Position numbers and translations under genes: made by a program. A DNA stretch of 36,390 bases, from IMG/VR virus record IMGVR_UViG_3300042691_033374, positions 1 through 36,390 of that record, one strand, 5' to 3'. Of the stretch, positions 150-32,676 are shown piece by piece (positions within the stretch are counted from its first letter, which is position 1; each line of letters opens with the position of its first letter). The notes below the pieces were generated by a model. The model had not been told where the DNA came from. It did not search any database and saw only the letters and a program-made list of their open reading frames with translations. This DNA comes from a virus.

Positions 150-159
150 GGAAACCTAG
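150..159 (+). promoter_or_regulatory. Late-gene element, variant copy (GGAAACCTAG)
   Basis: A copy of the recurring late element lies 2 bases after the upstream stop codon and 27 bases before the GTG start at 187. It differs from the best form GGCAACTTAG at two positions. A second partial match, GGCAACTTCTG, sits just upstream at 136-146 and includes the stop codon. Role inferred: late promoter or leader element. Confidence 0.45.
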
Positions 160-1021: not shown

Positions 1022-1031
1022 GGAAAGCTAG
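1022..1031 (+). promoter_or_regulatory. Late-gene element, variant copy (GGAAAGCTAG)
   Basis: The copy lies 34 bases upstream of the ATG at 1066. The bases after it (TGCGTCC) are the same as those after the perfect copy at 27865. A small palindrome, GGCTAGATAGCC, follows at 1039-1050. Confidence 0.45.
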
Positions 1032-1290: not shown

Positions 1291-3110
1291 TGGCAACCCA
1301 AGTTCAGAATCGTCGCGGCACCACTGCCGAGCACAACACCTTCACGGGTGCGGTTGGTGAGCTGACGGTCGACACCACCAAGGACGTGGTGGTTGTGCAT
1401 GACGGCAGCACGGCGGGCGGCTTTCCAACGCTGCGGCAGGACCAGGCCAACCTGCCCACCAGCGCCCCGTCAAACGGCGTTTATATACCCTCCAGCAACA
1501 ACGTAGCCATCTCGACTAATGGCACTGGGCGGTTGTTTGTTGATGCGAGTGGAAATGTGGGCGCGGGGACATCTAGTCCAACATTGAACACAACTGGTAC
1601 ATGTATTCATGTATCAAACGCATCGGCGGGAAATGCTGCACTTACTCGTTATACAACAGGCGACACTGGCACGGCCGCAACCGATGGCCTTGACGTAGGC
1701 ATGTGGTCCGATGGTGATGCGTTTTTCTGGTTGCGCGAATCGTCAAACATTCGATTTGCTACAGGCTCCACGGAGCGCATGCGCCTGGACTCCAGTGGCC
1801 GCTTAGGTCTGGGGACTTCGAGTGCTCAGGCGTTACTTGATCTGACGACAGGCAACGATCAGGATCACTTGGCCATACGAAACTGGCCCATGCTTAAGCC
1901 AGTCGGCACCGGCATTCGATATGGCGGATATAACAGCAGCCAATGGACAGAGCTATCGTTCTGGACCTCAGGATTGCGGGCAGTTACTGTTGACAACTTA
2001 CAGCGTGTAGGGATTGGCACTACGGGCCCCAGCGCCGCAACTCATGTCGTTCAACCTAGCTCGGGCAGTGATACCTTCCGTGCAGAAAACAGCGCAAGCA
2101 ATAATGTTATTCGGCTTCAGGCGGCTACTTCTACTGATAATTACATAGACTTTTATGCAGGTGCAAGTAGTGGCAGCTTAATCCTTCGGGGAGCCGGCAC
2201 AGAACGCGCCCGCATCGACTCCAGCGGCAGGCTGTTGGTGGGCACGTCTACTGCGCTTAGTGATGCGTCTTCAGTTTCTAGAAGTCTGCAAGTACTAGGA
2301 ACCAGCGCCGCAACCGCTGGTCAATTTATTGCAAGATTCGACAATAGCGTAAACGCTCCCTCTCTTGTACTCGGAAAGTCAAAAGGAGCCACTGTTGGTA
2401 CTTACACAGTTGTTAATTCCGGCGATCAAATTGGACGCCTTGCATTTGATGCGACTGATGGTACAAAGTTTGTTAACGCTGCACTCATTGCGGCCGAAGT
2501 AGACGGCACCCCCGGCGCTAACGACATGCCGGGCCGTTTAGTGTTCTCCACTTGTCCCGACGGGTCAGCTAGTCCGACGGAGCGGATGAGGATTACGAAT
2601 GGTGGGAATGTATTAATTGGCTGTCAAAGCTTGCCTAGTGCTACTGTTGAGGGGTTTGTAGCTACAGGAACAAGCAGCGGAAACAGGACAAGTTCTGGAT
2701 CTTCAACTTCTGCTTACAACCATTGGGTTTTCTATAACGGAAACGGCATTGTTGGATCTATTTCTACAAGTGCTTCTGCGACCACTTATGCCACTTCCTC
2801 CGACTACCGCCTTAAGGAAAACGTTGTCCCGCTAACTGGTGCTGCTGATCGCGTCAAGCAGCTCCAGGTTCACCGCTTCAACTTCATTGCGGATCCTGAC
2901 ACCACCGTTGACGGTTTCCTCGCTCACGAAGCACAAGCGGTTGTTCCTGAATGTGTAACTGGCACCAAGGATGCTGTGGACGCTGACGGCAACCCCGTCT
3001 ACCAAGGCATCGACCAGTCCAAGCTGGTGCCGCTGCTGACTGCTGCGCTGCAGGAAGCGTTGGCTGAGATCGAATCCTTGAGGGCTCGTTTAGACGCAGC
3101 AGGCATCTAA
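1290..3110 (+). CDS. Tail fibre with C-terminal S74 intramolecular chaperone
   Basis: A 606-residue fibre. The N-terminus (MATQVQNRRGTTAEHNTFTG) resembles attachment modules of cyanophage fibres. The centre has repeats of the form 'GNVGAGTSSPT', 'RLGLGTSS' and 'RIDSSGRLLVGTS', typical of trimeric beta-helical shafts with recurring 'TERMR(I/L)' units. The C-terminus contains SSDYRLKENV, then a long helix ending EIESLRARLDA. This is the Peptidase_S74 chaperone that trimerises fibres and cleaves itself off by a Ser/Lys mechanism; the conserved S-D-x-R-L-K is intact. The central part, about 1490-2850, is visibly more AT-rich than both ends and the neighbours, which suggests a swapped receptor-binding shaft. 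The start overlaps the upstream stop. Confidence 0.88.
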   Translation: MATQVQNRRGTTAEHNTFTGAVGELTVDTTKDVVVVHDGSTAGGFPTLRQDQANLPTSAPSNGVYIPSSNNVAISTNGTGRLFVDASGNVGAGTSSPTLNTTGTCIHVSNASAGNAALTRYTTGDTGTAATDGLDVGMWSDGDAFFWLRESSNIRFATGSTERMRLDSSGRLGLGTSSAQALLDLTTGNDQDHLAIRNWPMLKPVGTGIRYGGYNSSQWTELSFWTSGLRAVTVDNLQRVGIGTTGPSAATHVVQPSSGSDTFRAENSASNNVIRLQAATSTDNYIDFYAGASSGSLILRGAGTERARIDSSGRLLVGTSTALSDASSVSRSLQVLGTSAATAGQFIARFDNSVNAPSLVLGKSKGATVGTYTVVNSGDQIGRLAFDATDGTKFVNAALIAAEVDGTPGANDMPGRLVFSTCPDGSASPTERMRITNGGNVLIGCQSLPSATVEGFVATGTSSGNRTSSGSSTSAYNHWVFYNGNGIVGSISTSASATTYATSSDYRLKENVVPLTGAADRVKQLQVHRFNFIADPDTTVDGFLAHEAQAVVPECVTGTKDAVDADGNPVYQGIDQSKLVPLLTAALQEALAEIESLRARLDAAGI

Positions 3111-3133
3111 GACCTACTCTCTAGTCACCTTCT

Positions 3134-3148
3134 AATTTGACTCAAATT
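3134..3148. repeat. Perfect 15-bp AT-rich palindrome
   Basis: AATTTGA-C-TCAAATT lies 24 bases after the fibre stop codon in otherwise GC-rich DNA. No T-tract follows, so it is not a standard terminator. It could be a protein-binding site or a weak transcript end. Confidence 0.4.
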
Positions 3149-3238
3149 TGAAGTTGGCCAGTTCACGTCACTAGGCGGGCAACCGGCCTGTTCAACAGGT
3201 TGCACCACTCTTAGCCTTAAGGCACCGCCACTACACCC

Positions 3239-3866: not shown

Positions 3867-3877
3867 GGCAACTTAGG
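3867..3877 (+). promoter_or_regulatory. Late-gene element, perfect copy (GGCAACTTAG)
   Basis: A perfect 10-base copy at 3867-3876, followed by G, lies 24 bases upstream of the GTG start at 3901. It heads the lysis cluster. Confidence 0.6.
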
Positions 3878-4147: not shown

Positions 4148-4157
4148 GGCAACTTAG
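4148..4157 (+). promoter_or_regulatory. Late-gene element, perfect copy (GGCAACTTAG)
   Basis: The copy starts 4 bases after the stop codon of the holin-like gene and lies 19 bases before the ATG at 4177. Two consecutive short lysis genes therefore each carry their own copy. Confidence 0.6.
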
Positions 4158-6282: not shown

Positions 6283-6585
6283 ATGAGCGACGGCGAAAGC
6301 AGACCCACCAGCTGGATGGCGTACAGCATCCCTTTGACGGAGGAGCTGAAGCTGGAGCAGGCGATCAGGGAGGTTTCAGGGCACCCAGACATGGACAAGG
6401 TCCGAGCCCTGTGCGCCTCCCTGATGCGCAGCAACTACCACCAGCAACAACTCTTAGCGAACGCGGTGGGTCGCATTGGCGAGCTGGAGCTTGTCCTGTT
6501 CCTTGGCGCTCATGCGGAGCCCAGCGAGGTCAGCGCTTTTCTCTCCATGGCCCGCGAGGTCTGCGAGGACCTTGGCATCGGCTAA
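6283..6585 (+). CDS. Unknown alpha-helical protein convergent with the sigma gene
   Basis: A 100-residue, mainly helical protein ([20 protein letters not shown], then [20 protein letters not shown] and a long final helix). The sequence has real-protein composition, and I recall similar small cyanobacterial phage proteins with a '[11 protein letters not shown]' helix but no function. Its 3' third lies antisense to the last 44 codons of the minus-strand sigma factor gene, a 132-base convergent overlap. A weak CCTAGG site lies about 14 bases before the ATG. Confidence 0.55.
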
Positions 6586-7467
6586 GGGCGACACCGAGCT
6601 CATGTACAGCCGCAGCGTGCGCAGCGCCCTGATCTCAATCTGCCGCACCCGCTCCCTCGACACCCCGAGGTCCTGGGCCAACACCTGATACGCCACAGGC
6701 GCCTTACCAGTCAGCTCGTGGCGGTGTTCAAGCACGTAGCGCTCACGCTCAGACAGTCGTGCCAAGCAGGCTTCCAGACGCCAGCGGTCATCAATCAAAA
6801 AGATGGCGTCGTCGTCCAGGTAGCTGGGGTCTGGGATCAAGTCGATGAGCGGGTTGCCATCGTCCACGCACGACGCATCCAGCGACGTCGGCGCAGCCGT
6901 GCGCTCAAAAATCATCCACATCTGCTCCACCGACATCCCCATCGCATCCGCCAGCTCCTGCTTGCTGGGCGTCCGCCCCAGCTGCTGCGACAGCTGCTGC
7001 ATGGTGTACTTGAGCTTGGGCACCTTCTCAGCGACGTGGTGCGGCAGCCGAATCGCCGCGTCCTGCTGATTCACAGCCCGGTTCATCCCCTGCCGAATCC
7101 ACCAGTAGGCGTAGGTCGAGAACTTGTAGCCCCGCGCGGGGTCAAACTTCTCGACCCCCCGCATCAACCCAATCGTGCCCTCCTGGATGAGGTCAAGCAT
7201 CGTCAGGTGGTTGACGCGCTTGAGGTACTTCTTGGCGATGGAGACCACCATGCGCAAATTGCAGTTCACCATCTGCTGCTTGGCCCTCTCACCCAAGCGC
7301 ACTTCGCGCGCCTCCGCCTTGGTGAGCCGACCCCCTGCCGCCTCCTTCTCGCGCAGCTGCGTCAAGCGCTGCACCTGCCGGCCCAGAAGTACCTCCTGAG
7401 TAACGGTAAGCAGAGGGTAACGAGCGATCTCGTTTAGGAAATCAGAAAAGCTGTGATCAATTCTCAT
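6454..7467 (-). CDS. RpoD-family (sigma-70) sigma factor, phage-encoded
   Basis: A 337-residue sigma factor with regions 1.2 to 4.2 and no region 1.1. Region 1.2 is near the N-terminus ([13 protein letters not shown]). Region 2 spans about 62-150, with [20 protein letters not shown] and the -10 melting/recognition helix [20 protein letters not shown]. Regions 3 and 4.2 follow, the last with an intact -35 helix-turn-helix ([20 protein letters not shown]). At the position matching E. coli sigma-70 Thr440, which contacts base -12, it has Asn129, while Gln126 (Gln437) is kept. About 45 residues after region 4 are extra and antisense to the gene at 6283. It is the last gene of the minus operon, with an ATGA overlap. 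It probably redirects host RNA polymerase to phage promoters. Confidence 0.9.
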
Positions 7468-9097: not shown

Positions 9098-9318
9098 AAG
9101 CCGTACCTCCCCGCCTCAAGGGCGGCCACGGTCTTGATGCCCTGAACGGCGTGCTTAAGAGCGAACAGTGCGGTAACCAGCTCCTGGTAACCGCGCTCGT
9201 CCTCACTCAGCTCCACCTCCCCGTCAGAGAGGCGGTTCAACAGCTGCAAGAGTTCTGCAGTGTGCGTCACGCAATCTTCGGCCACCGCCGAGATGCGCCG
9301 TGGCGCAAGGGAAGTCAC
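9094..9318 (-). CDS. First gene of the early minus operon, unknown
   Basis: A 74-residue helical, acidic protein (AEDCVTHTAELLQLLNRLSD, then YQELVTALFALKHAVQGIKT). The GTG at 9318 is chosen because AGGAACACCC precedes it as a ribosome binding site; an in-frame GTG at 9360 would fall inside the promoter. It is led by the operator-rich promoter at 9326-9370. The fold resembles small helical phage proteins, but nothing specific is recognised. Confidence 0.6.
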   Translation of the reverse strand: MTSLAPRRISAVAEDCVTHTAELLQLLNRLSDGEVELSEDERGYQELVTALFALKHAVQGIKTVAALEAGRYGL

Positions 9319-9325
9319 GGGTGTT

Positions 9326-9370
9326 CCTGTATGGACAGGGAGAGAGTATCTGTTCCACACAGGAAGTCAA
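9326..9370 (-). promoter_or_regulatory. Promoter with two palindromic operators, divergent region
   Basis: On the minus strand TTGACT (9365-9370) and TACTCT (9343-9348) are separated by 16 bases and form a good sigma-70 promoter for the operon starting at 9318. Two similar palindromes overlap it: CTGT-TCCAC-ACAG at 9350-9362, between -35 and -10, and CCTGT-ATGG-ACAGG at 9326-9339, just downstream. This is the arrangement expected for a repressor-controlled promoter. On the plus strand TATAGC at 9376-9381 could be a -10 for the recombinase gene, so the region may be a lysis-lysogeny control point. Confidence 0.6.
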
Positions 9371-9390
9371 GCCCCTATAGCGTTAGTCCC

Positions 9391-10686
9391 ATGGGACAAG
9401 CCGTGCGCATCGGGTATTTACGGGTGTCGACCGACACCAGCGAGCAGCTCAACGCCCTGGAAAACCAGCGCTCCCGCATTCTGGGCTCTGGCGTCGACCG
9501 CCTCATCGAGGACGTGGAGAGCGGGCTCTCCCAGGACCGCCCCGGCTACCTGGAGCTCCTGCACCTCATCGACACGCGCCAGGTGCAAGAGGTCGTCTGC
9601 ACCCGCGTCGACCGCCTTGGCCGGGACGCTGCGGCGACCGATGCGCTGATCGCCGTTGCCGCCAAGCGCGGTGTGCGCATCCACTGCCTCGACGGCGGCA
9701 CCATCGACTCCGAGACGCCCCAGGGCTTCCTGCTGTCGCGCATGGCCACCTCAATGGCAGAGATGGAGAGCCGGATGCTCTCGATGCGTGTCCGCGCCGG
9801 CTACAGCGAAGGCCGCAAGCGCGCCCGCCCCCTGCGCGGCAAGGTCGCCTGGGGCTACCGCGTCAACGCCGACCGCAGCGCCCTCGAGCCGGACCCTCAA
9901 GAGTTCCCGAGAGCGGCCCGCTTCCTTGCGTTATGCAAGCAATGCGACTGGCGCATGAACACTGCCCTCGATAAATGGCATACAGCAGGGCTGGGCGCTC
10001 TCCCCTTAAGCTCCTGCCGCGCTGTCAAAGCCTGGCTCCTCAACCCAGTCCTCCGAGGCGGCCTTGGCTATCTCAAACAGAACGACAACACCTACAAAGA
10101 AATCGTCTGGGATACTCACGAAGCCCTGCTATCTCACAGCAGCTTTGTGATCATGGAACGTCAGTTGCATGACAACCGAAGACGCTGGGGCCACAGCGCC
10201 CAGGTCAAGCCCCGGCTCTTAACGGGCCTCTGCGTATGCGCAGGCTGCAACAAAAAGATGACCTACGCCGGCAGCCGCACCATCGCCAGCGTTGTATGCA
10301 AAAGCCGAGAGTGTGCGCAGCGCTACAAAAGCACCCGAGAACAAACGGTGCGCGAAGCGATCAATAGCGAGCTCTCGAAGCGCAACACGCAGTTAGCGCA
10401 GCTGGCCACAAAAGAAAACCCCGAGACCCTGGCCCTTAAGGCCAAGATCGCGTGGTTAAAGGCGCTGGACGACCCTGACATGGCCGCAGCGATTGAGATC
10501 AAGCGCGAGCGCCTGTTAGCACTGGAGCAGCAAGTCGGCCCCGACCCCCAGCTCCTGTCTGTATTCGCCGACCCTGCCGTCTGGTCACAGTTGAGCGACG
10601 AGGAACTGCGGGAGCTGTACCTAGCGCTGGTCGAACGGGTGATGGTGGATCGCCAGGAAGTGGAGACCGTGGTGCTTCGCCTCTGA
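9391..10686 (+). CDS. Large serine recombinase (phage integrase)
   Basis: A 431-residue large serine recombinase. The N-terminal resolvase domain has GYLRVST with catalytic Ser13, then DRPGYLELLHLID and VCTRVDRLGRDAAATDALI. The recombinase domain starts near GKVAWGYRVN. A zinc ribbon follows at about 280-312 (CVCAGCNKKMTYAGS and CKSREC), then a coiled-coil stretch and a short C-terminal region. The architecture matches phage integrases and cyanobacterial element-excision recombinases of the XisF kind. It would integrate and excise the phage at attachment sites. The attP site is usually near the gene but I could not identify it. The gene is divergent from the minus operon and convergent with polA. 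Confidence 0.9.
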   Translation: MGQAVRIGYLRVSTDTSEQLNALENQRSRILGSGVDRLIEDVESGLSQDRPGYLELLHLIDTRQVQEVVCTRVDRLGRDAAATDALIAVAAKRGVRIHCLDGGTIDSETPQGFLLSRMATSMAEMESRMLSMRVRAGYSEGRKRARPLRGKVAWGYRVNADRSALEPDPQEFPRAARFLALCKQCDWRMNTALDKWHTAGLGALPLSSCRAVKAWLLNPVLRGGLGYLKQNDNTYKEIVWDTHEALLSHSSFVIMERQLHDNRRRWGHSAQVKPRLLTGLCVCAGCNKKMTYAGSRTIASVVCKSRECAQRYKSTREQTVREAINSELSKRNTQLAQLATKENPETLALKAKIAWLKALDDPDMAAAIEIKRERLLALEQQVGPDPQLLSVFADPAVWSQLSDEELRELYLALVERVMVDRQEVETVVLRL

Positions 10687-15081: not shown

Positions 15082-15115
15082 GGGGAGGGGTCTCTTTAAT
15101 ACTCTCCCCCTTTTC
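15082..15115 (+). terminator. Possible terminator after the primase-helicase gene
   Basis: GGGGAG at 15082-15087 can pair with CTCCCC at 15104-15109 around a 16-base loop, followed by CCTTTT. The stem is short, so efficiency is uncertain. The right arm is also part of the long inverted repeat described at 15091. Confidence 0.35.
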
Positions 15116-15345
15116 CTGTCCGAGTTCGCTGAAACCGACTGCGCTGCAATGGATCGGCTCGGACAATCGTACTCGGACTTTGCTCGGACAGTGTCCGAGT
15201 CAAACAGGGCTCATTCTCAATAAGCGCGCTTGTTGCGCGGACAGTGTCCGAGTCTGGCCGAGTCAACTGTCCGAGTCCAAATCCATTCCCCCCCAAGGGG
15301 TTTAGTAGGTACTCGGACAGGCAAACCGGGGGAGTATTAAAGGGA
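15091..15345. repeat. Long-range inverted repeat flanking the site cluster
   Basis: CTCTTTAATACTCTCCCCC at 15092-15110 and GGGGGAGTATTAAAGGGA at 15328-15345 are near-inverse copies that differ by a two-base insertion and one base. They bracket the repeat cluster about 220 bases apart and are the most AT-rich short stretches in the region. Possible roles: matched promoters, an unwinding element or an ori boundary. Confidence 0.5.
15117..15319. repeat. Cluster of at least eight ACTCGGACA/TGTCCGAGT sites
   Basis: Copies read as TGTCCGAGT at 15117-15125, 15192-15200, 15245-15253 and 15268-15276. Reverse copies (ACTCGGACA or one base shorter) lie at 15158-15165, 15171-15178, 15183-15190 and 15311-15319. 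Two form a 17-bp palindrome (CTCGGACA-G-TGTCCGAG, 15183-15199), and an imperfect second palindrome is at 15236-15253. The mixed orientation suggests a dimeric DNA-binding protein. Candidate binders are the 232-residue protein at 15411, the RHH-like protein at 16137 or the primase-helicase. Confidence 0.75.
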
Positions 15346-15410
15346 ACGGGAGTTTGGACCCCTGCTAGTGCGACCTCAGGTAGCGTCAGGGCTACCTAGC
15401 TAGGGCACAC

Positions 15411-16109
15411 ATGACTGACGCGACCCAGGCGCCTCCACTGCTCACCAAACTCGAACAGGGCGCCATCCAGTTCCCCCCAGCATTCCGGGCGCTGAGCAGT
15501 CAGATGACCCAGACGCAGTTCATGAAGCTGGCCGCGGCTTACCTGGGCACCAAGGCGATCCACAGCAGCACGATCGGCGGCTTCCGCAGCGGCAAGCTCA
15601 CCGAACCCGCCCCCAAGACGCTCCTGGCGCTCGGCTACTTCAACACCGCCCTCGCCCGCTCCATCGGCCACCCGGAAGAGCTGATCGAGCAAGCGCCCGA
15701 CATCGGCTACCCACCCAAGCTCCCCCACTACCTCAAGGAGATCTGGGAGCACACCATCCCAATGCTCGACCGCGAAGGCGTTGCTCTGGGGCCTTTGGGC
15801 ATGTTTGAAGCGTTCTGCGGCCTCCGAGAACTCCCCGCCAGCGAACGTCGCTACCTCGACGAGGTCGACGCCCCCAGCGCCAGCCGCGTTCTAGGTGCGT
15901 TCCTGCGCGCCCACTACGGCAAGCACAACATCGACTGGTACGAAAAGCTGCCCGAGCTGGTCTACGACTGCCCCACCATCGAGCCCCTGCTTCTCAACCG
16001 CACGGTGCCAGCAGACCGCCTGATTCACGACCTCGACACCATCGGCCGCCTTGTCGGGCTAAGCGGCAGCGCTCTCTGGGAGCACCTGCAAGCAAACCTA
16101 AGTAGGTAG
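15411..16109 (+). CDS. 232-residue protein, possible DNA-binding regulator or initiator
   Basis: The sequence is helical throughout. A segment at about residues 38-80 (TQTQFMKLAAAYLGTKAIHS, then a Gly/Arg turn and PKTLLALGYFNTAL) could be a lambda-repressor-like helix-turn-helix, and the last 25 residues (IGRLVGLSGSALWEHLQANL) another. No family is firmly recognised. The gene starts about 90 bases after the cluster of palindromic sites and heads the early plus operon, so binding those sites as a repressor or replication initiator is the natural hypothesis. Confidence 0.5.
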   Translation: MTDATQAPPLLTKLEQGAIQFPPAFRALSSQMTQTQFMKLAAAYLGTKAIHSSTIGGFRSGKLTEPAPKTLLALGYFNTALARSIGHPEELIEQAPDIGYPPKLPHYLKEIWEHTIPMLDREGVALGPLGMFEAFCGLRELPASERRYLDEVDAPSASRVLGAFLRAHYGKHNIDWYEKLPELVYDCPTIEPLLLNRTVPADRLIHDLDTIGRLVGLSGSALWEHLQANLSR

Positions 16110-19692: not shown

Positions 19693-19702
19693 GGCAACTT
19701 AG
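19693..19702 (+). promoter_or_regulatory. Late-gene element, perfect copy (GGCAACTTAG)
   Basis: The copy lies 18 bases before the ATG at 19721, where the early operon gives way to packaging genes. Confidence 0.6.
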
Positions 19703-19720: not shown

Positions 19721-19933
19721 ATGCCGCGCCCCAGCAACAAGGCCGCCGCCAGCGCCATCGAGCGTTATGCGCGCACCAACATCGCTGAGCGCAACGACGC
19801 CTACGGGCAGTTCATGTACCACGCAGAACTCCTTCGCCGAGGGCACACAACCATTCACCAACGCGACTTAGCGACGCTGCCCCGCAAGTACCGCGACACC
19901 ATTCAGCAGTTGCGGCAGGGGTCGGCAACTTAG
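19721..19933 (+). CDS. 70-residue basic protein upstream of the small terminase gene
   Basis: MPRPSNKAAASAIERYARTN opens a basic helical protein that continues ERNDAYGQFMYHAELLRRGH and ends RKYRDTIQQLRQGSAT. No family is recognised. Its stop codon is the TAG of the late element that precedes the next gene. The position suggests a packaging or head-assembly accessory role. Confidence 0.55.
   Translation: MPRPSNKAAASAIERYARTNIAERNDAYGQFMYHAELLRRGHTTIHQRDLATLPRKYRDTIQQLRQGSAT
19924..19933 (+). promoter_or_regulatory. Late-gene element, perfect copy overlapping a stop codon
   Basis: GGCAACTTAG is embedded in the end of the 70-residue gene, so its TAG is that gene's stop. The next start is 28 bases on, at 19962. 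Confidence 0.55.
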
Positions 19934-25300: not shown

Positions 25301-25310
25301 GGAATCCTAG
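25301..25310 (+). promoter_or_regulatory. Late-gene element, variant copy (GGAATCCTAG)
   Basis: This differs by one base from the variant at 150-159 and lies 24 bases before the portal GTG start. Confidence 0.4.
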
Positions 25311-27864: not shown

Positions 27865-27874
27865 GGCAACTTAG
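27865..27874 (+). promoter_or_regulatory. Late-gene element, perfect copy (GGCAACTTAG)
   Basis: The copy begins 11 bases after the previous stop and lies 21 bases before the scaffold ATG. Confidence 0.6.
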
Positions 27875-29781: not shown

Positions 29782-30060
29782 TTATCCCTCAGCACTAATC
29801 CGCGCCTGCTCCTGCCTCTCAAACACCCCAATCGTGTCCACCGACATCTTGTAGCTCTGCAACATCACCTGATTCACCAACACATAACTCAACTCCAACC
29901 GCTCCGCAATCTCAGGCACCGTCGCCCCCGCCTCTTTCATCTCCCGAATCTGCGGCACAACATCTTCCCACTTCCGCACCCCAGCAACACCCACCTCCTC
30001 CTTCTTCGCCACTTTCTTCTTGGGCGCCTTAGCGCAGGCTGCGGTGTCTTGATCGCTCAT
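29782..30060 (-). CDS. Minus-strand HTH protein inside the head module
   Basis: A 92-residue protein: a Lys-rich N-terminus (AKAPKKKVAKKEE), then a helix-turn-helix (IREMKEAGATVPEIAERLEL, SYVLVNQVMLQSYK) and a helical end. It lies opposite to all neighbours, between the capsid terminator and the adaptor gene, with its own minus-strand late element 19 bases before the ATG. It may be a 'moron'-like insertion or a late regulator. The target DNA is unknown. Confidence 0.65.
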   Translation of the reverse strand: MSDQDTAACAKAPKKKVAKKEEVGVAGVRKWEDVVPQIREMKEAGATVPEIAERLELSYVLVNQVMLQSYKMSVDTIGVFERQEQARISAEG

Positions 30061-30079: not shown

Positions 30080-30103
30080 CCGAAGTTGCCCCGGAAAGCT
30101 CGG
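30080..30103. promoter_or_regulatory. Head-to-head late elements forming a palindrome
   Basis: On the minus strand GGCAACTTCGG (30080-30090) faces the gene starting at 30060, with 19 bases between. On the plus strand GGAAAGCTCGG (30093-30103) faces the gene starting at 30120, with 16 bases between. The two are 2 bases apart. The inverse of this 24-bp unit matches the one at 32653-32676 at 21 of 24 positions. Confidence 0.6.
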
Positions 30104-30119: not shown

Positions 30120-30689
30120 ATGCCTGCGCCCACGATTGTTGCGACCGCCGGCGCCACCAACGCCAACAGCTACCTCAGCATTGCCGGCGCTGACAGCATC
30201 GCGGACGGCATGGTCGGCACGCTCACCTGGAGCACCGCCACCAGCGACAACAAAGCCCGCGCCCTCATCACCGCCACCAACGGCATGGAGACCCTGGGCT
30301 GGATCGGCACCCGCGCCAGCACCACGCAGGCCCTGGCCTGGCCCCGCTCCGACGCCAGCTGCGGCGACAAAACCATCACCGCCACCGAAATCCCCCGCGA
30401 ACTTGAACTAGCCACGTTTGATCTAGCCAACGCGCTACTCGGCGACCCCACTTTGTTGCGCAACTCCCCCACCACCGCCGCCCTCGTCACCGGCATCCCC
30501 AACCGCGACCTCAAGCGCCTGAAGCTCGACGTCATGGAGCTCGAGTGGAACACCAACGCGGGCAACAGCACCACGAAAGCCGCCACCCCCCTCACAGTCC
30601 TCCCCCACCTGGCCACGATCCTCGGCTGCCTGACCACTAGCACCACCGGCGGTGGCATCGGCGGCGCCGTCGCCCTCACCCGCAGCTGA
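30120..30689 (+). CDS. Head-tail adaptor/head completion protein (DnaT_2-like)
   Basis: A 189-residue protein: ANSYLSIAGADSIADG near the start, then KARALITATNGMETLGWIGT, QALAWPRSDA, and IPRELELATFDLANALLGDP. This is the pattern of phage proteins carrying the 'putative DnaT-like' domain: a conserved 'K.aALi.AT..ld...W.G....QaLaWPR......IP..v..A...lA'. Such proteins sit after the capsid gene and are thought to complete the head or join the tail, not to act in replication. Confidence 0.72.
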   Translation: MPAPTIVATAGATNANSYLSIAGADSIADGMVGTLTWSTATSDNKARALITATNGMETLGWIGTRASTTQALAWPRSDASCGDKTITATEIPRELELATFDLANALLGDPTLLRNSPTTAALVTGIPNRDLKRLKLDVMELEWNTNAGNSTTKAATPLTVLPHLATILGCLTTSTTGGGIGGAVALTRS

Positions 30690-30721
30690 CGTACCTAGGT
30701 AGGTCCGCAATAGACTAGGGG

Positions 30722-31279
30722 ATGGCCCAGGTTGCCGCCCCCACCCCTACCGCAACGGGTCCGCGCCACCGGCCCCGCACCGGCTACCTGGCGACCCCCC
30801 TCACCCGCGACGAGCAGCGCCGCATCGCCTCGATGTACCGCGAGCATCGAGGGCTCCTGCGCCTAATGGGACGGAAGTTATGCAGGAAGTACCCGTTTGT
30901 CTCACCGGAGGACGTGTTTTCGTGCATCGACCAAGCGTTCATCAAAACCTGCCGCGCCTGGCAACCCGCCAAGGGCACGTTCAGCACCTTGCTCACCGTC
31001 TTCGCTGAAGGCGACGTGTTGCACTTCATCCGCGACCACAACTGGTTGGTGAAGGCCCCAGGCGCCGTCCGCCGCAACGGCCAACTCGCCCGCAAGATGT
31101 TGGACCGTGGCAGCAGCCGCGAAGAAGTATTGATCGCACTCGAAATCACCGAAGAGCAACTGAAACTCGCCCTCGTTGCCACCAGCCCCACAGACCACGA
31201 CATCCGCGGCTTCGACCTCCACATCTGCCCCCGCGCTACACCCTGGGAGCTGTTAGAGCAAGGCGAGGCGGCAACTTAG
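30722..31279 (+). CDS. Small sigma-factor-like protein (region 2) in the late operon
   Basis: A 185-residue protein. Residues about 42-115 resemble sigma-70 region 2: LLRLMGRKLCRKYPFVSPED, VFSCIDQAFIKTCRAWQPAK, then GTFSTLLTVFAEGDVLHFIR and DHNWLVKAPGAVRRNG. The 'G.fsT.l...a.G.i.hfiRDh.wlvkaP..vR' form is closest to the SigB/SigF/WhiG-type families. Residues 125-152 (SSREEVLIALEITEEQLKLA) resemble a region 3 helix pair. Region 4 is absent. A small region-2 protein of this kind could act as a late sigma like T4 gp55. It has no late element of its own; a TACCTAGGTAGG site and TAGACT precede the ATG. Confidence 0.68.
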   Translation: MAQVAAPTPTATGPRHRPRTGYLATPLTRDEQRRIASMYREHRGLLRLMGRKLCRKYPFVSPEDVFSCIDQAFIKTCRAWQPAKGTFSTLLTVFAEGDVLHFIRDHNWLVKAPGAVRRNGQLARKMLDRGSSREEVLIALEITEEQLKLALVATSPTDHDIRGFDLHICPRATPWELLEQGEAAT

Positions 31280-31301: not shown

Positions 31302-31781
31302 ATGGCAACCGGCGCCTTTTTCAACAGCCTCGGCTACAAGTTTTACGTGAAAGCGGGCACCACCGCTTCCACCAACCCCACCACCAGCACCGGCATGACC
31401 GAAGTGCTGTCGCTGACCGACGCCTCCCTCCAAGGCTCAACCCAAACCCAAGACGTACTCGACTACGGCAGCACTCTTGGCTTCACCGCATCCATCGTGC
31501 AGCAGCAGAGCTACACGATTCCGATGTCGATGAACCTCAACCTCAACGACGCCGGCTACATCGTTCTTAAAAACGCCTCGCTCAACGCCGCCGACGGCAC
31601 CACTGTTCAGTGGTTCCGCGAGTCCCCCGAGATGAGCACCACCGGCAACCCTGAGTACCACTCCGGCGTTGCATGGGTGACCGACTTCTCTGAGTCCATC
31701 GCCGCCGGCAACGTGGCCCAGGTCACCTTCACCCTCACCGGCTACGGCGCCTACACCTGGAGCGCCGAAACCAACGCCTGA
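31302..31781 (+). CDS. Major tail tube protein
   Basis: A 159-residue beta-rich protein: MATGAFFNSLGYKFYVKAGT, then TSTGMTEVLSLTDASL, YTIPMSMNLNLNDAGYIVLK and a final AAGNVAQVTFTLTGYGAYTW. A length near 160 residues, the beta-sandwich pattern and the 'v.Ftltgyg' end fit siphovirus tail tube proteins. It is preceded by a perfect late element and followed by a terminator, as suits a very abundant protein. The tape measure gene follows two minus-strand genes further on. Confidence 0.78.
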   Translation: MATGAFFNSLGYKFYVKAGTTASTNPTTSTGMTEVLSLTDASLQGSTQTQDVLDYGSTLGFTASIVQQQSYTIPMSMNLNLNDAGYIVLKNASLNAADGTTVQWFRESPEMSTTGNPEYHSGVAWVTDFSESIAAGNVAQVTFTLTGYGAYTWSAETNA

Positions 31782-31801: not shown

Positions 31802-31831
31802 GCCCGCTGCCCCACAGGGTGGCGGGCTTTT
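31802..31831 (+). terminator. Intrinsic terminator after the tail tube gene
   Basis: GCCCGC (31802-31807) pairs with GCGGGC (31822-31827), an inner CCC/GGG extends the stem, and TTTT follows. It lies between convergent genes. Confidence 0.8.
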
Positions 31832-32258
31832 ACGCGCCCCCAATCTTGCGCCACTCCCTCACAAAGAACTCCGTCGGATCCTGCGCTCTCAGCACCGGCG
31901 TAATCCAATCCCGCCCCGGCGCGATGTAAGCATCCATCATCGTCCCGACTATAAAACCACCCTCAAGCACATCCCCGGAGTACGGCACCCTCCACGTAAT
32001 CGTCAGGCTGTTTGAGGTGATCTGCGGCGCAGATTGCGACTGCAGCAGATCGCCTGTATCCACGATGTCCCGCCGCCCCCTAGGAACAAACTTTCCCGAG
32101 TACAGGCCGACCACGCGCCGCGTCGGCACCCCCCACTGATACACCTTCGCCTTAATCGAATCCTGCAACAGCGGCGTAATCTTCACGCCATAGCTGGCGA
32201 GCACCCGCGGCACCCGCTGCAGCAGCCGGTCCGCATTCCACTGCGTAACCCGCGCCAT
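31830..32258 (-). CDS. Probable neck/minor tail protein (HK97 gp10-like), minus strand
   Basis: A 142-residue protein from the ATG at 32258 (a GTG one codon earlier is possible). It has a helical N-terminus (ARVTQWNADRLLQRVPRVLA), then VDTGDLLQSQSAPQI, a strand segment SLTITWRVPYSGDVLEGGFI, and a C-terminal RDWITPVLRAQDP. The 'vdTGdLl.S......' pattern followed by a strand and 'r.Wi.pal' is typical of HK97 gp10-type head-tail joining proteins. It is encoded opposite to the neighbouring structural genes, with the partner gene at 32650. Confidence 0.65.
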   Translation of the reverse strand: MARVTQWNADRLLQRVPRVLASYGVKITPLLQDSIKAKVYQWGVPTRRVVGLYSGKFVPRGRRDIVDTGDLLQSQSAPQITSNSLTITWRVPYSGDVLEGGFIVGTMMDAYIAPGRDWITPVLRAQDPTEFFVREWRKIGGA

Positions 32259-32650
32259 CACCCCACCTGCTCACGGGACACCAGCTGCACCCTCTCCCCA
32301 AGCGCCGCGCCCAGCGTCTCGCCAAGCAACCCCGTCTTGCCATACGGCAGCCGCAGCGCCGTCACCTCACACTCCACCGCACCCGCACCCCCAAACGCCA
32401 CAACACCCTCCGTCCCCACGACAACTCGCTCGTCCAGCGCCTCCAGGGCGTAGCCATCAAACGTCGTCTCCGTCATCTCCACGCCCGGAAACGCCGTACC
32501 CCGCACCCGCTCCGCCTTCAGAAACAGCGGGACCGACACAGTGGCAGTGGCTGGTGTGACGTTGCCGGTCGTCGGGTCCGTCACCACACCAGCCCCCGCG
32601 ACGGTGAACGTCGCGGTTGCGTTAGCGAGCGCGCTCAGAGCAGAAGTCAT
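32258..32650 (-). CDS. Probable head-tail joining protein, minus strand
   Basis: A 130-residue beta-rich protein: NATATFTVAGAGVVTDPTTG, NVTPATATVSVPLFLKAERV, GVEMTETTFDGYALEALDER. 'TDPtTGN' with a later 'G..lpygktgllGe..g..l' region suggests a head-tail connector-type protein. Its stop overlaps the next minus gene's start by one base. The minus-strand late element ends 2 bases before this ATG, much closer than elsewhere, so either the real start is further in or the element acts differently here. Confidence 0.55.
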   Translation of the reverse strand: MTSALSALANATATFTVAGAGVVTDPTTGNVTPATATVSVPLFLKAERVRGTAFPGVEMTETTFDGYALEALDERVVVGTEGVVAFGGAGAVECEVTALRLPYGKTGLLGETLGAALGERVQLVSREQVG

Positions 32651-32652
32651 AA

Positions 32653-32676
32653 CCGAGCTTTCCCCGGCAACCTCGG
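32653..32676. promoter_or_regulatory. Head-to-head late elements forming a palindrome
   Basis: On the minus strand GGAAAGCTCGG (32653-32663) faces the gene at 32650. On the plus strand GGCAACCTCGG (32666-32676) lies 21 bases before the tape measure GTG. The pair is separated by CC, exactly as in the unit at 30080. Confidence 0.6.

Follow-up and report, generated by a model that had tools for sequence, protein, structure and literature searches.

What does a sigma-like protein without region 4 do amongst the virion genes of a cyanobacterial phage, and which promoter would it read? The question is raised by an open reading frame in the virus record IMGVR_UViG_3300042691_033374, whose analysed stretch of 36,390 nt is called the window here (positions are 1-based in the window). 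The available evidence indicates that this gene (30722-31279) very likely encodes the late sigma factor of the phage, directing polymerase to an extended -10 element that lacks a -35, a reading reached without transcription, binding or timing data.

A sigma factor without region 4 between the adaptor and tail-tube genes

The short sigma gene begins with ATG and encodes 185 amino acids. As the first-pass annotation had placed it, the gene lies between an adaptor and a tail-tube gene: its 5' neighbour is the head-tail adaptor Ad1 (30120-30689; PHROG_477, E 5e-29) and its 3' neighbour a tail-tube gene (31302-31781; PHROG_38654, E 1e-12), with only 22 bp between the sigma stop and the tail-tube start codon. 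The annotation had also attributed to the protein a sigma region 2 and region-3-like helices in the absence of region 4, which PHROG, Pfam, profile and structure comparisons bear out. Pfam Sigma70_r2 matches the window protein alone only weakly (E 0.0018, under the curated cut-off), and it detects 40 of 45 relatives (3.8e-6 at best), while two PHROG sigma families match the window protein at 8.5e-10 and 5.7e-8. The profile of the 45 relatives has S. aureus SigB (8x6g, 3.7e-5) as its top match in the PDB, followed by SigF (1l0o); the SigB alignment spans region 2 and extends into region 3 (residues 114-153), and the same helices also align to sigma region 3 when compared by hhalign with the complete sigma of the phage. 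The label 'region-2-only' originally given to the factor is thus incorrect, as regions 2 and 3 are both represented.

The comparison of an AlphaFold model with sigma region 2, which had been suggested as a check, likewise returned sigma factors. The model, based on a 44-sequence alignment, has a mean pLDDT of 81, and all 50 of the Foldseek matches listed against the PDB are sigma chains (probability about 1.0), with modest whole-chain E values (best 2e-3 among the matches listed; none passes 0.001). SigF and SigG from Bacillus phages are amongst the matches to viral structures. No match to region 4 was found with Pfam in any of the 45 family members. Judged by these profiles and the predicted structure, the protein has two features expected of a sigma-70 family member (region 2 and a sigma fold), and it lacks region 4, which a complete sigma-70 factor of groups 1-3 would have. 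Its closest known types seem to be SigB and SigF, i.e., group 3, an assignment made without a formal tree.

The factor is conserved in more than 80 relatives and occupies the same genomic place in more than 80 genomes. Across 45 sequences with identities down to 52%, 48 alignment columns are invariant, and the C-tail (DHDIRGFDLHxCPRPTPWExLE) is strongly conserved. A sub-threshold Pfam match to DUF433 in 17 members (residues 126-151) overlaps the region-3-like helices and was dismissed as probably a helix-turn-helix echo.

A genome contig scan also recovered a copy of the sigma gene (90% identical) at 1602-2156 of L196, a 3.3-kb contig binned as Rhodoferax that is probably a mis-binned phage contig. 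In L075, an HNH-type endonuclease-like ORF (2518-3225) lies between the sigma and tail-tube genes, and sequence similar to this ORF directly follows the sigma stop in L071, L078-L080, L082 and L086.

Table 1. Sigma factor genes, elements and candidate promoter in the window
Feature	Position	Strand	Remarks
Late element GGAAACCTAG	150..159	+	Before virion structural gene
Late element GGAAAGCTAG	1022..1031	+	Before ORF 1066-1290, upstream of tail-fibre gene
Late element GGCAACTTAG	3867..3876	+	24 nt before 80-aa ORF close to lysis genes
Late element GGCAACTTAG	4148..4157	+	Before short ORF upstream of endolysin
Complete second sigma gene	6454..7467	-	337 aa; regions 1.2, 2, 3 and 4; orthologous to rpsD4 of S-CBS1 and S-CBS3
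Late element GGCAACTTAG	19693..19702	+	18 nt before 70-aa ORF
Late element GGCAACTTAG	19924..19933	+	28 nt before 139-aa ORF
Family-consensus element GGAATCCTAG	25301..25310	+	24 nt before portal GTG; relatives also have the element there
Late element GGCAACTTAG	27865..27874	+	21 nt before scaffold gene ATG
Variant element GGCAACTTCG	30081..30090	-	20 nt before minus-strand ORF 29782-30060
Variant element GGAAAGCTCG	30093..30102	+	17 nt before Ad1 ATG
Candidate promoter of sigma gene	30692..30716	+	TACCTAGGTAGG at 30692-30703; -10-like TAGACT at 30711-30716; no late element
Region-4-less sigma gene	30722..31279	+	Region 2 about 29-108; region-3-like 114-153; conserved C-tail 158-182
Late element GGCAACTTAG	31270..31279	+	22 nt before tail-tube ATG; contains sigma stop codon
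Variant element GGAAAGCTCG	32654..32663	-	3 nt before minus-strand neck gene 32258-32650
Variant element GGCAACCTCG	32666..32675	+	22 nt before tape-measure GTG (32698)

A conserved element upstream of late genes

The sequence GGCAACTTAG, referred to here as the late element (late timing is inferred), has six perfect matches in the window, every one on the plus (late) strand. When up to one mismatch is allowed, there are 7 matches compared with 1.5 expected, a number reached in 0 of 100 shuffles. In 17 related genomes (a set that includes the window itself), the form GGNAANYTAG is found 133 times on the late strand versus 8 times on the other strand, and a start codon lies 15-28 nt downstream of 101 of the 133 late-strand copies, compared with 8.7% of random positions (P 3e-78). 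The genes that follow are mostly virion, tail or lysis genes. Gaps in this series are filled by a variant, GGMAANYTCG, which stands at the same spacing before the tape-measure, portal, Ad1 and scaffold genes. Before minus-strand genes of the late cluster the variant is found in the opposite orientation, matching gene direction, and in the window the variant elements form divergent pairs (30081/30093 and 32654/32666).

Some of the genes on the minus strand deserve mention in their own right. The ORF at 29782-30060 (92 aa) resembles a small DNA-binding protein and has a late-type element in matching orientation 20 nt upstream; ORFs of 90-98 aa with a same-orientation element are present in G001, G007, G009, G010, G011 and G014. 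Two neck-type ORFs (143 and 130 aa; 31830-32650) lie on the minus strand within the plus-strand late cluster, and a similar ORF in L075 (4078-4581) is likewise on the minus strand.

Alignment of 96 non-redundant sites places the information in the 10-bp core, the G that follows it, and an A five bases past its end (the ten core bases themselves served to select the sites). The 50 nt upstream of these sites carry no information and no -35, and in the -35 zone no 5- or 6-mer is enriched above random windows when variable spacing is allowed. The conserved A is the inferred transcription start site, in the absence of transcript data; if it is the start, two invariant bases of the element, A at position 4 and T at position 8, fall at -11 and -7. 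These are the two bases flipped out of the -10 element by sigma region 2. Given this placement of the core and the lack of a -35, the element resembles an extended -10 joined to part of the discriminator, and such a -35-less block is what a sigma factor with regions 2 and 3 and no region 4 should need. The commonest short distances from element to start codon are 3-4 nt (the shortest being 3 nt), a spacing that would fit leaderless mRNAs starting near the conserved A, if the inferred start site is correct.

The short sigma gene is itself preceded by a different arrangement. The first-pass annotation had described its upstream sequence as lacking the late element and containing TACCTAGGTAGG and TAGACT instead, and this description is accurate, with TAGACT standing five bases before the ATG. 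The combination of CCTAGGTAGG and the -10-like TAGACT is a variable pattern that recurs in near relatives. None of 60 distinct relatives has the late element in the 120 nt before the sigma gene, and 50 of the 60 have it directly after the gene; in the window, the TAG of the element copy at 31270-31279 doubles as the sigma stop codon.

Boxes of the form CTANNTAGG occur in the window at 15396, 16098 and 30695 (plus strand), two of them lying shortly before an ORF start; TAGACT follows two of them, the same arrangement as upstream of the sigma gene. These boxes are common to G001 and G006 and are a possible middle-promoter or activator site.

Co-occurrence of the element with the short sigma factor

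Since the window encodes a second, complete sigma factor (Table 1), the distribution of the element can be compared amongst genomes with the short factor, with the complete factor only, and with neither. All 18 of the short-sigma IMG/VR genomes counted contain the element, 17 of them with 4-10 late-strand copies and one (G022) with only 3 exact copies. The element is at background in the 28 phages and contigs that have a complete sigma only (KBS-S-2A, S-CBS1, S-CBS3 and 25 IMG/VR contigs), and also in contigs with neither sigma that have an MCP 62-77% identical. The complete sigmas of the element-less group are 38-48% identical to that of the window, and those within the element-bearing group are of similar divergence (mostly 40-48%). 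Treating genomes as independent, the co-occurrence of short sigma and element has a Fisher P of 4e-13, which overstates its strength because the genomes are not fully independent. One genome without the short sigma, G047, has 6 exact matches on one strand; at 41% GC and with no GGMAANYTAG before a called ORF, it was treated as background.

The co-occurrence is thus tight, with lineage as a partial confounder, and by genome content the element tracks the short sigma and not the complete sigma. Joint action is not excluded, since every longer genome with the short sigma and the element encodes a complete sigma as well.

Sister clade and cultured phages

A sister clade comprising G037 and its relatives (28 loci) encodes a factor 37% identical to the short sigma of the window, located in G037 after a large terminase-size ORF and before a portal-sized ORF. 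Region 2 is strong in this factor (3.6e-11), and region 4 was not detected in the factors of this clade (clade B) or in those of P-SS2, S-CRES1 and S-CBS2. Late genes of the G037 clade are preceded by GGCAANYTYA-like forms, and GGGCAAC is found in 33 upstream regions versus 0 when reversed; compared with the window, the upstream half of the element is retained and the downstream half is altered.

Amongst cultured phages, P-SS2 (ORF003, named 'type III RNAP sigma factor'), S-CBS2 (gp077) and S-CRES1 (gp20) have factors like that of the window, short and of group 3, with only region 2 detectable; the hhalign comparison of the window family with P-SS2 ORF003 gives 97%. These phages also carry a group-2-type sigma, like the second sigma of the window. 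The position of the gene differs, since it follows terL in these phages (as seen in P-SS2 and S-CRES1) and lies between Ad1 and tail tube in the window. In the passages of Sullivan et al. 2009 (PMC2784084) considered here, P-SS2 is reported to have group-2 and group-3 sigma factors, the latter expected to serve a particular regulon, and no cognate promoter sequence is proposed there for the group-3 factor.

An unbiased search for gapped k-mers upstream of ORFs yields GGAANNCTAG in P-SS2 and S-CRES1, with GGAANNCTA(G) top or next to top (P-SS2, 10/108 versus 0.4 expected; S-CRES1, 8/53 versus 0.3). In S-CBS2, 12 late-strand sites before ORFs are found versus 2, in the same register. The form in all three phages is GGNANNYTAG, of the same element family and upstream of late-strand ORFs. 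Counted over the whole P-SS2 genome, GGNANNYTAG is no commoner than chance would give (12 versus 12.4 expected); the signal in this phage consists of strand and position before ORFs (11 versus 1) and of the unbiased search. Amongst 35 sites from the three phages there is no clear -35 element, and a purine stands five bases past the element in 77%. The same unbiased search returned nothing similar to the element in KBS-S-2A, S-CBS1 and S-CBS3, and only a weak signal in the single small genomes G000, G016 and G037, because these have few ORFs. The sigma factors of S-CBS1 and S-CBS3 (rpsD4) and of KBS-S-2A are complete and orthologous to the complete sigma of the window, and phages with only such factors lack the element. 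Taken with the missing -35 and the co-occurrence, the search results for P-SS2 and S-CRES1 leave the initial proposal that the short sigma is the prime candidate to read GGCAACTTAG well supported, binding and transcription remaining inferences.

Comparison with T4 gp55 and other sigma factors

The first-pass annotation had likened the factor to T4 gp55, a sigma of minimal size that has region 2, lacks region 4 and acts at short, -35-less late promoters (PMC2988020). The resemblance holds in so far as the window factor is a small sigma without region 4 associated with a -35-less element, which it is only inferred to read, while kinship with gp55 could not be demonstrated: hhalign of the short-sigma family against gp55 gives 0.7%. 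A complete sigma profile used as a control fails as well (5.3%), and since the control is equally blind, the absence of a gp55 match is weak evidence. That gp55 likewise has 185 aa is a coincidence. The window element differs from the T4 late promoter TATAAATA, the window factor, unlike gp55, includes region-3-like helices and stems from the SigB/SigF side, and a partner corresponding to gp33 or gp45 was not identified for it, unlike in T4. The gp55 family is further marked by a C-terminal sliding-clamp epitope used with gp33 and gp45; for the window family, the analysis shows a conserved C-tail. On this comparison the short sigma may be regarded as an analogue of gp55, not as a demonstrated relative. 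It also differs from SigB, SigF and SigG, which have region 4 and read a -35 and a -10, whereas the window family lacks region 4 and is associated with an element lacking a -35.

Alternative explanations

The complete sigma could itself read the element, leaving the short factor to do something else. It has all of the DNA-binding regions and is present in every longer element-bearing genome; however, the 28 phages and contigs with a similarly diverged complete sigma and no short factor lack the element, and if a region-4 sigma were the reader, some -35 information should be visible, of which none was found, so this explanation is improbable. About as improbable is that the element is not a promoter at all and acts as an operator for a repressor or activator, or as a leader RNA element. 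A protein could bind such an asymmetric 10-mer, and a spacing of about 18-24 nt to start codons could suit a leader element, but some sites are 3-4 nt from the start codon, too near for a usual ribosome signal, the A and T at -11 and -7 and the purine at the inferred start are conserved, the element is oriented with the gene on either strand, and the presence of the element follows a sigma factor. That the short factor is merely a decaying or accidental sigma fragment without function, as its lost region 4 and low Pfam score might suggest, can hardly be entertained: the frame is intact, with the invariant columns and constant genomic place described above, the cultured-phage homologues share the same short form, and this conservation already refutes it.

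More weight is due to the idea that the short factor is half of a split sigma, needing a phage partner or region 4 of the complete sigma, which we regard as unlikely without being able to set it aside. Region 4 is missing from the short factor, the strongly conserved C-tail could be a partner surface, and the complete and short factors coexist in the longer genomes; partnered sigma factors also have precedents in gp55 with gp33 and RsoA with SigO (PMC2988020 and general knowledge). Yet no candidate partner was identified, and there is no -35 for region 4 to read. A split sigma would be compatible with the short factor being the late sigma, and concerns only how the factor is helped.

Proposed late switch

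Because the short sigma travels with one promoter found before particle and lysis genes, the pair is very probably a late-stage switch. In the proposed sequence of events, polymerase with a host sigma or the complete phage sigma would first make the short sigma (an inferred order) from its promoter without the late element. The short sigma would then bind the core of the host cyanobacterial RNA polymerase through region 2 and direct it to GGMAANYT(A/C)G, one extended -10 block with no accompanying -35; both core binding and recognition of the element are inferred. On both strands, this would turn on the operons for virion, tail and lysis proteins, presumably late in infection. The C-tail may provide a contact that replaces region 4, to the beta flap or to a phage co-activator, a role that is likewise inferred.

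A broader proposal can be offered only tentatively, its chances being somewhat short of even: that this is a widespread and undescribed late system of cyanobacterial siphoviruses, in which a self-sufficient group-3 sigma of regions 2 and 3 works without region 4, a -35 or a co-activator on a 10-bp extended -10 reaching into the discriminator, a system that would have arisen separately from T4 gp55 and whose sigma and element co-diverge across clades. A literature search, which did not cover most subscription journals, found no paper describing the element, no cognate promoter proposed for the group-3 sigmas of cyanobacterial siphoviruses, and no description of the late-gene switch. The analysis links one sigma family to a precisely defined 10-bp promoter across dozens of uncultured genomes as well as P-SS2, S-CBS2 and S-CRES1; since these three phages are in culture, the pairing can be put to laboratory test immediately. 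Should the factor function in the absence of region 4, late transcription without a -35 would have been solved in a second way besides that of T4 gp55, and a compact, orthogonal pair of sigma and promoter would be at hand for cyanobacteria.

Other features of the window

Between a primase-like gene and the ORF at 15411, the window contains an origin- or operator-like array (15091-15345) of CTCGGACA/TGTCCGAG repeats and two near-perfect CTCGGACAGTGTCCGAG palindromes, within a 35-nt inverted repeat (86%). A serine-recombinase-type integrase gene is present at 9151-10686 on the plus strand, which suggests a temperate phage.
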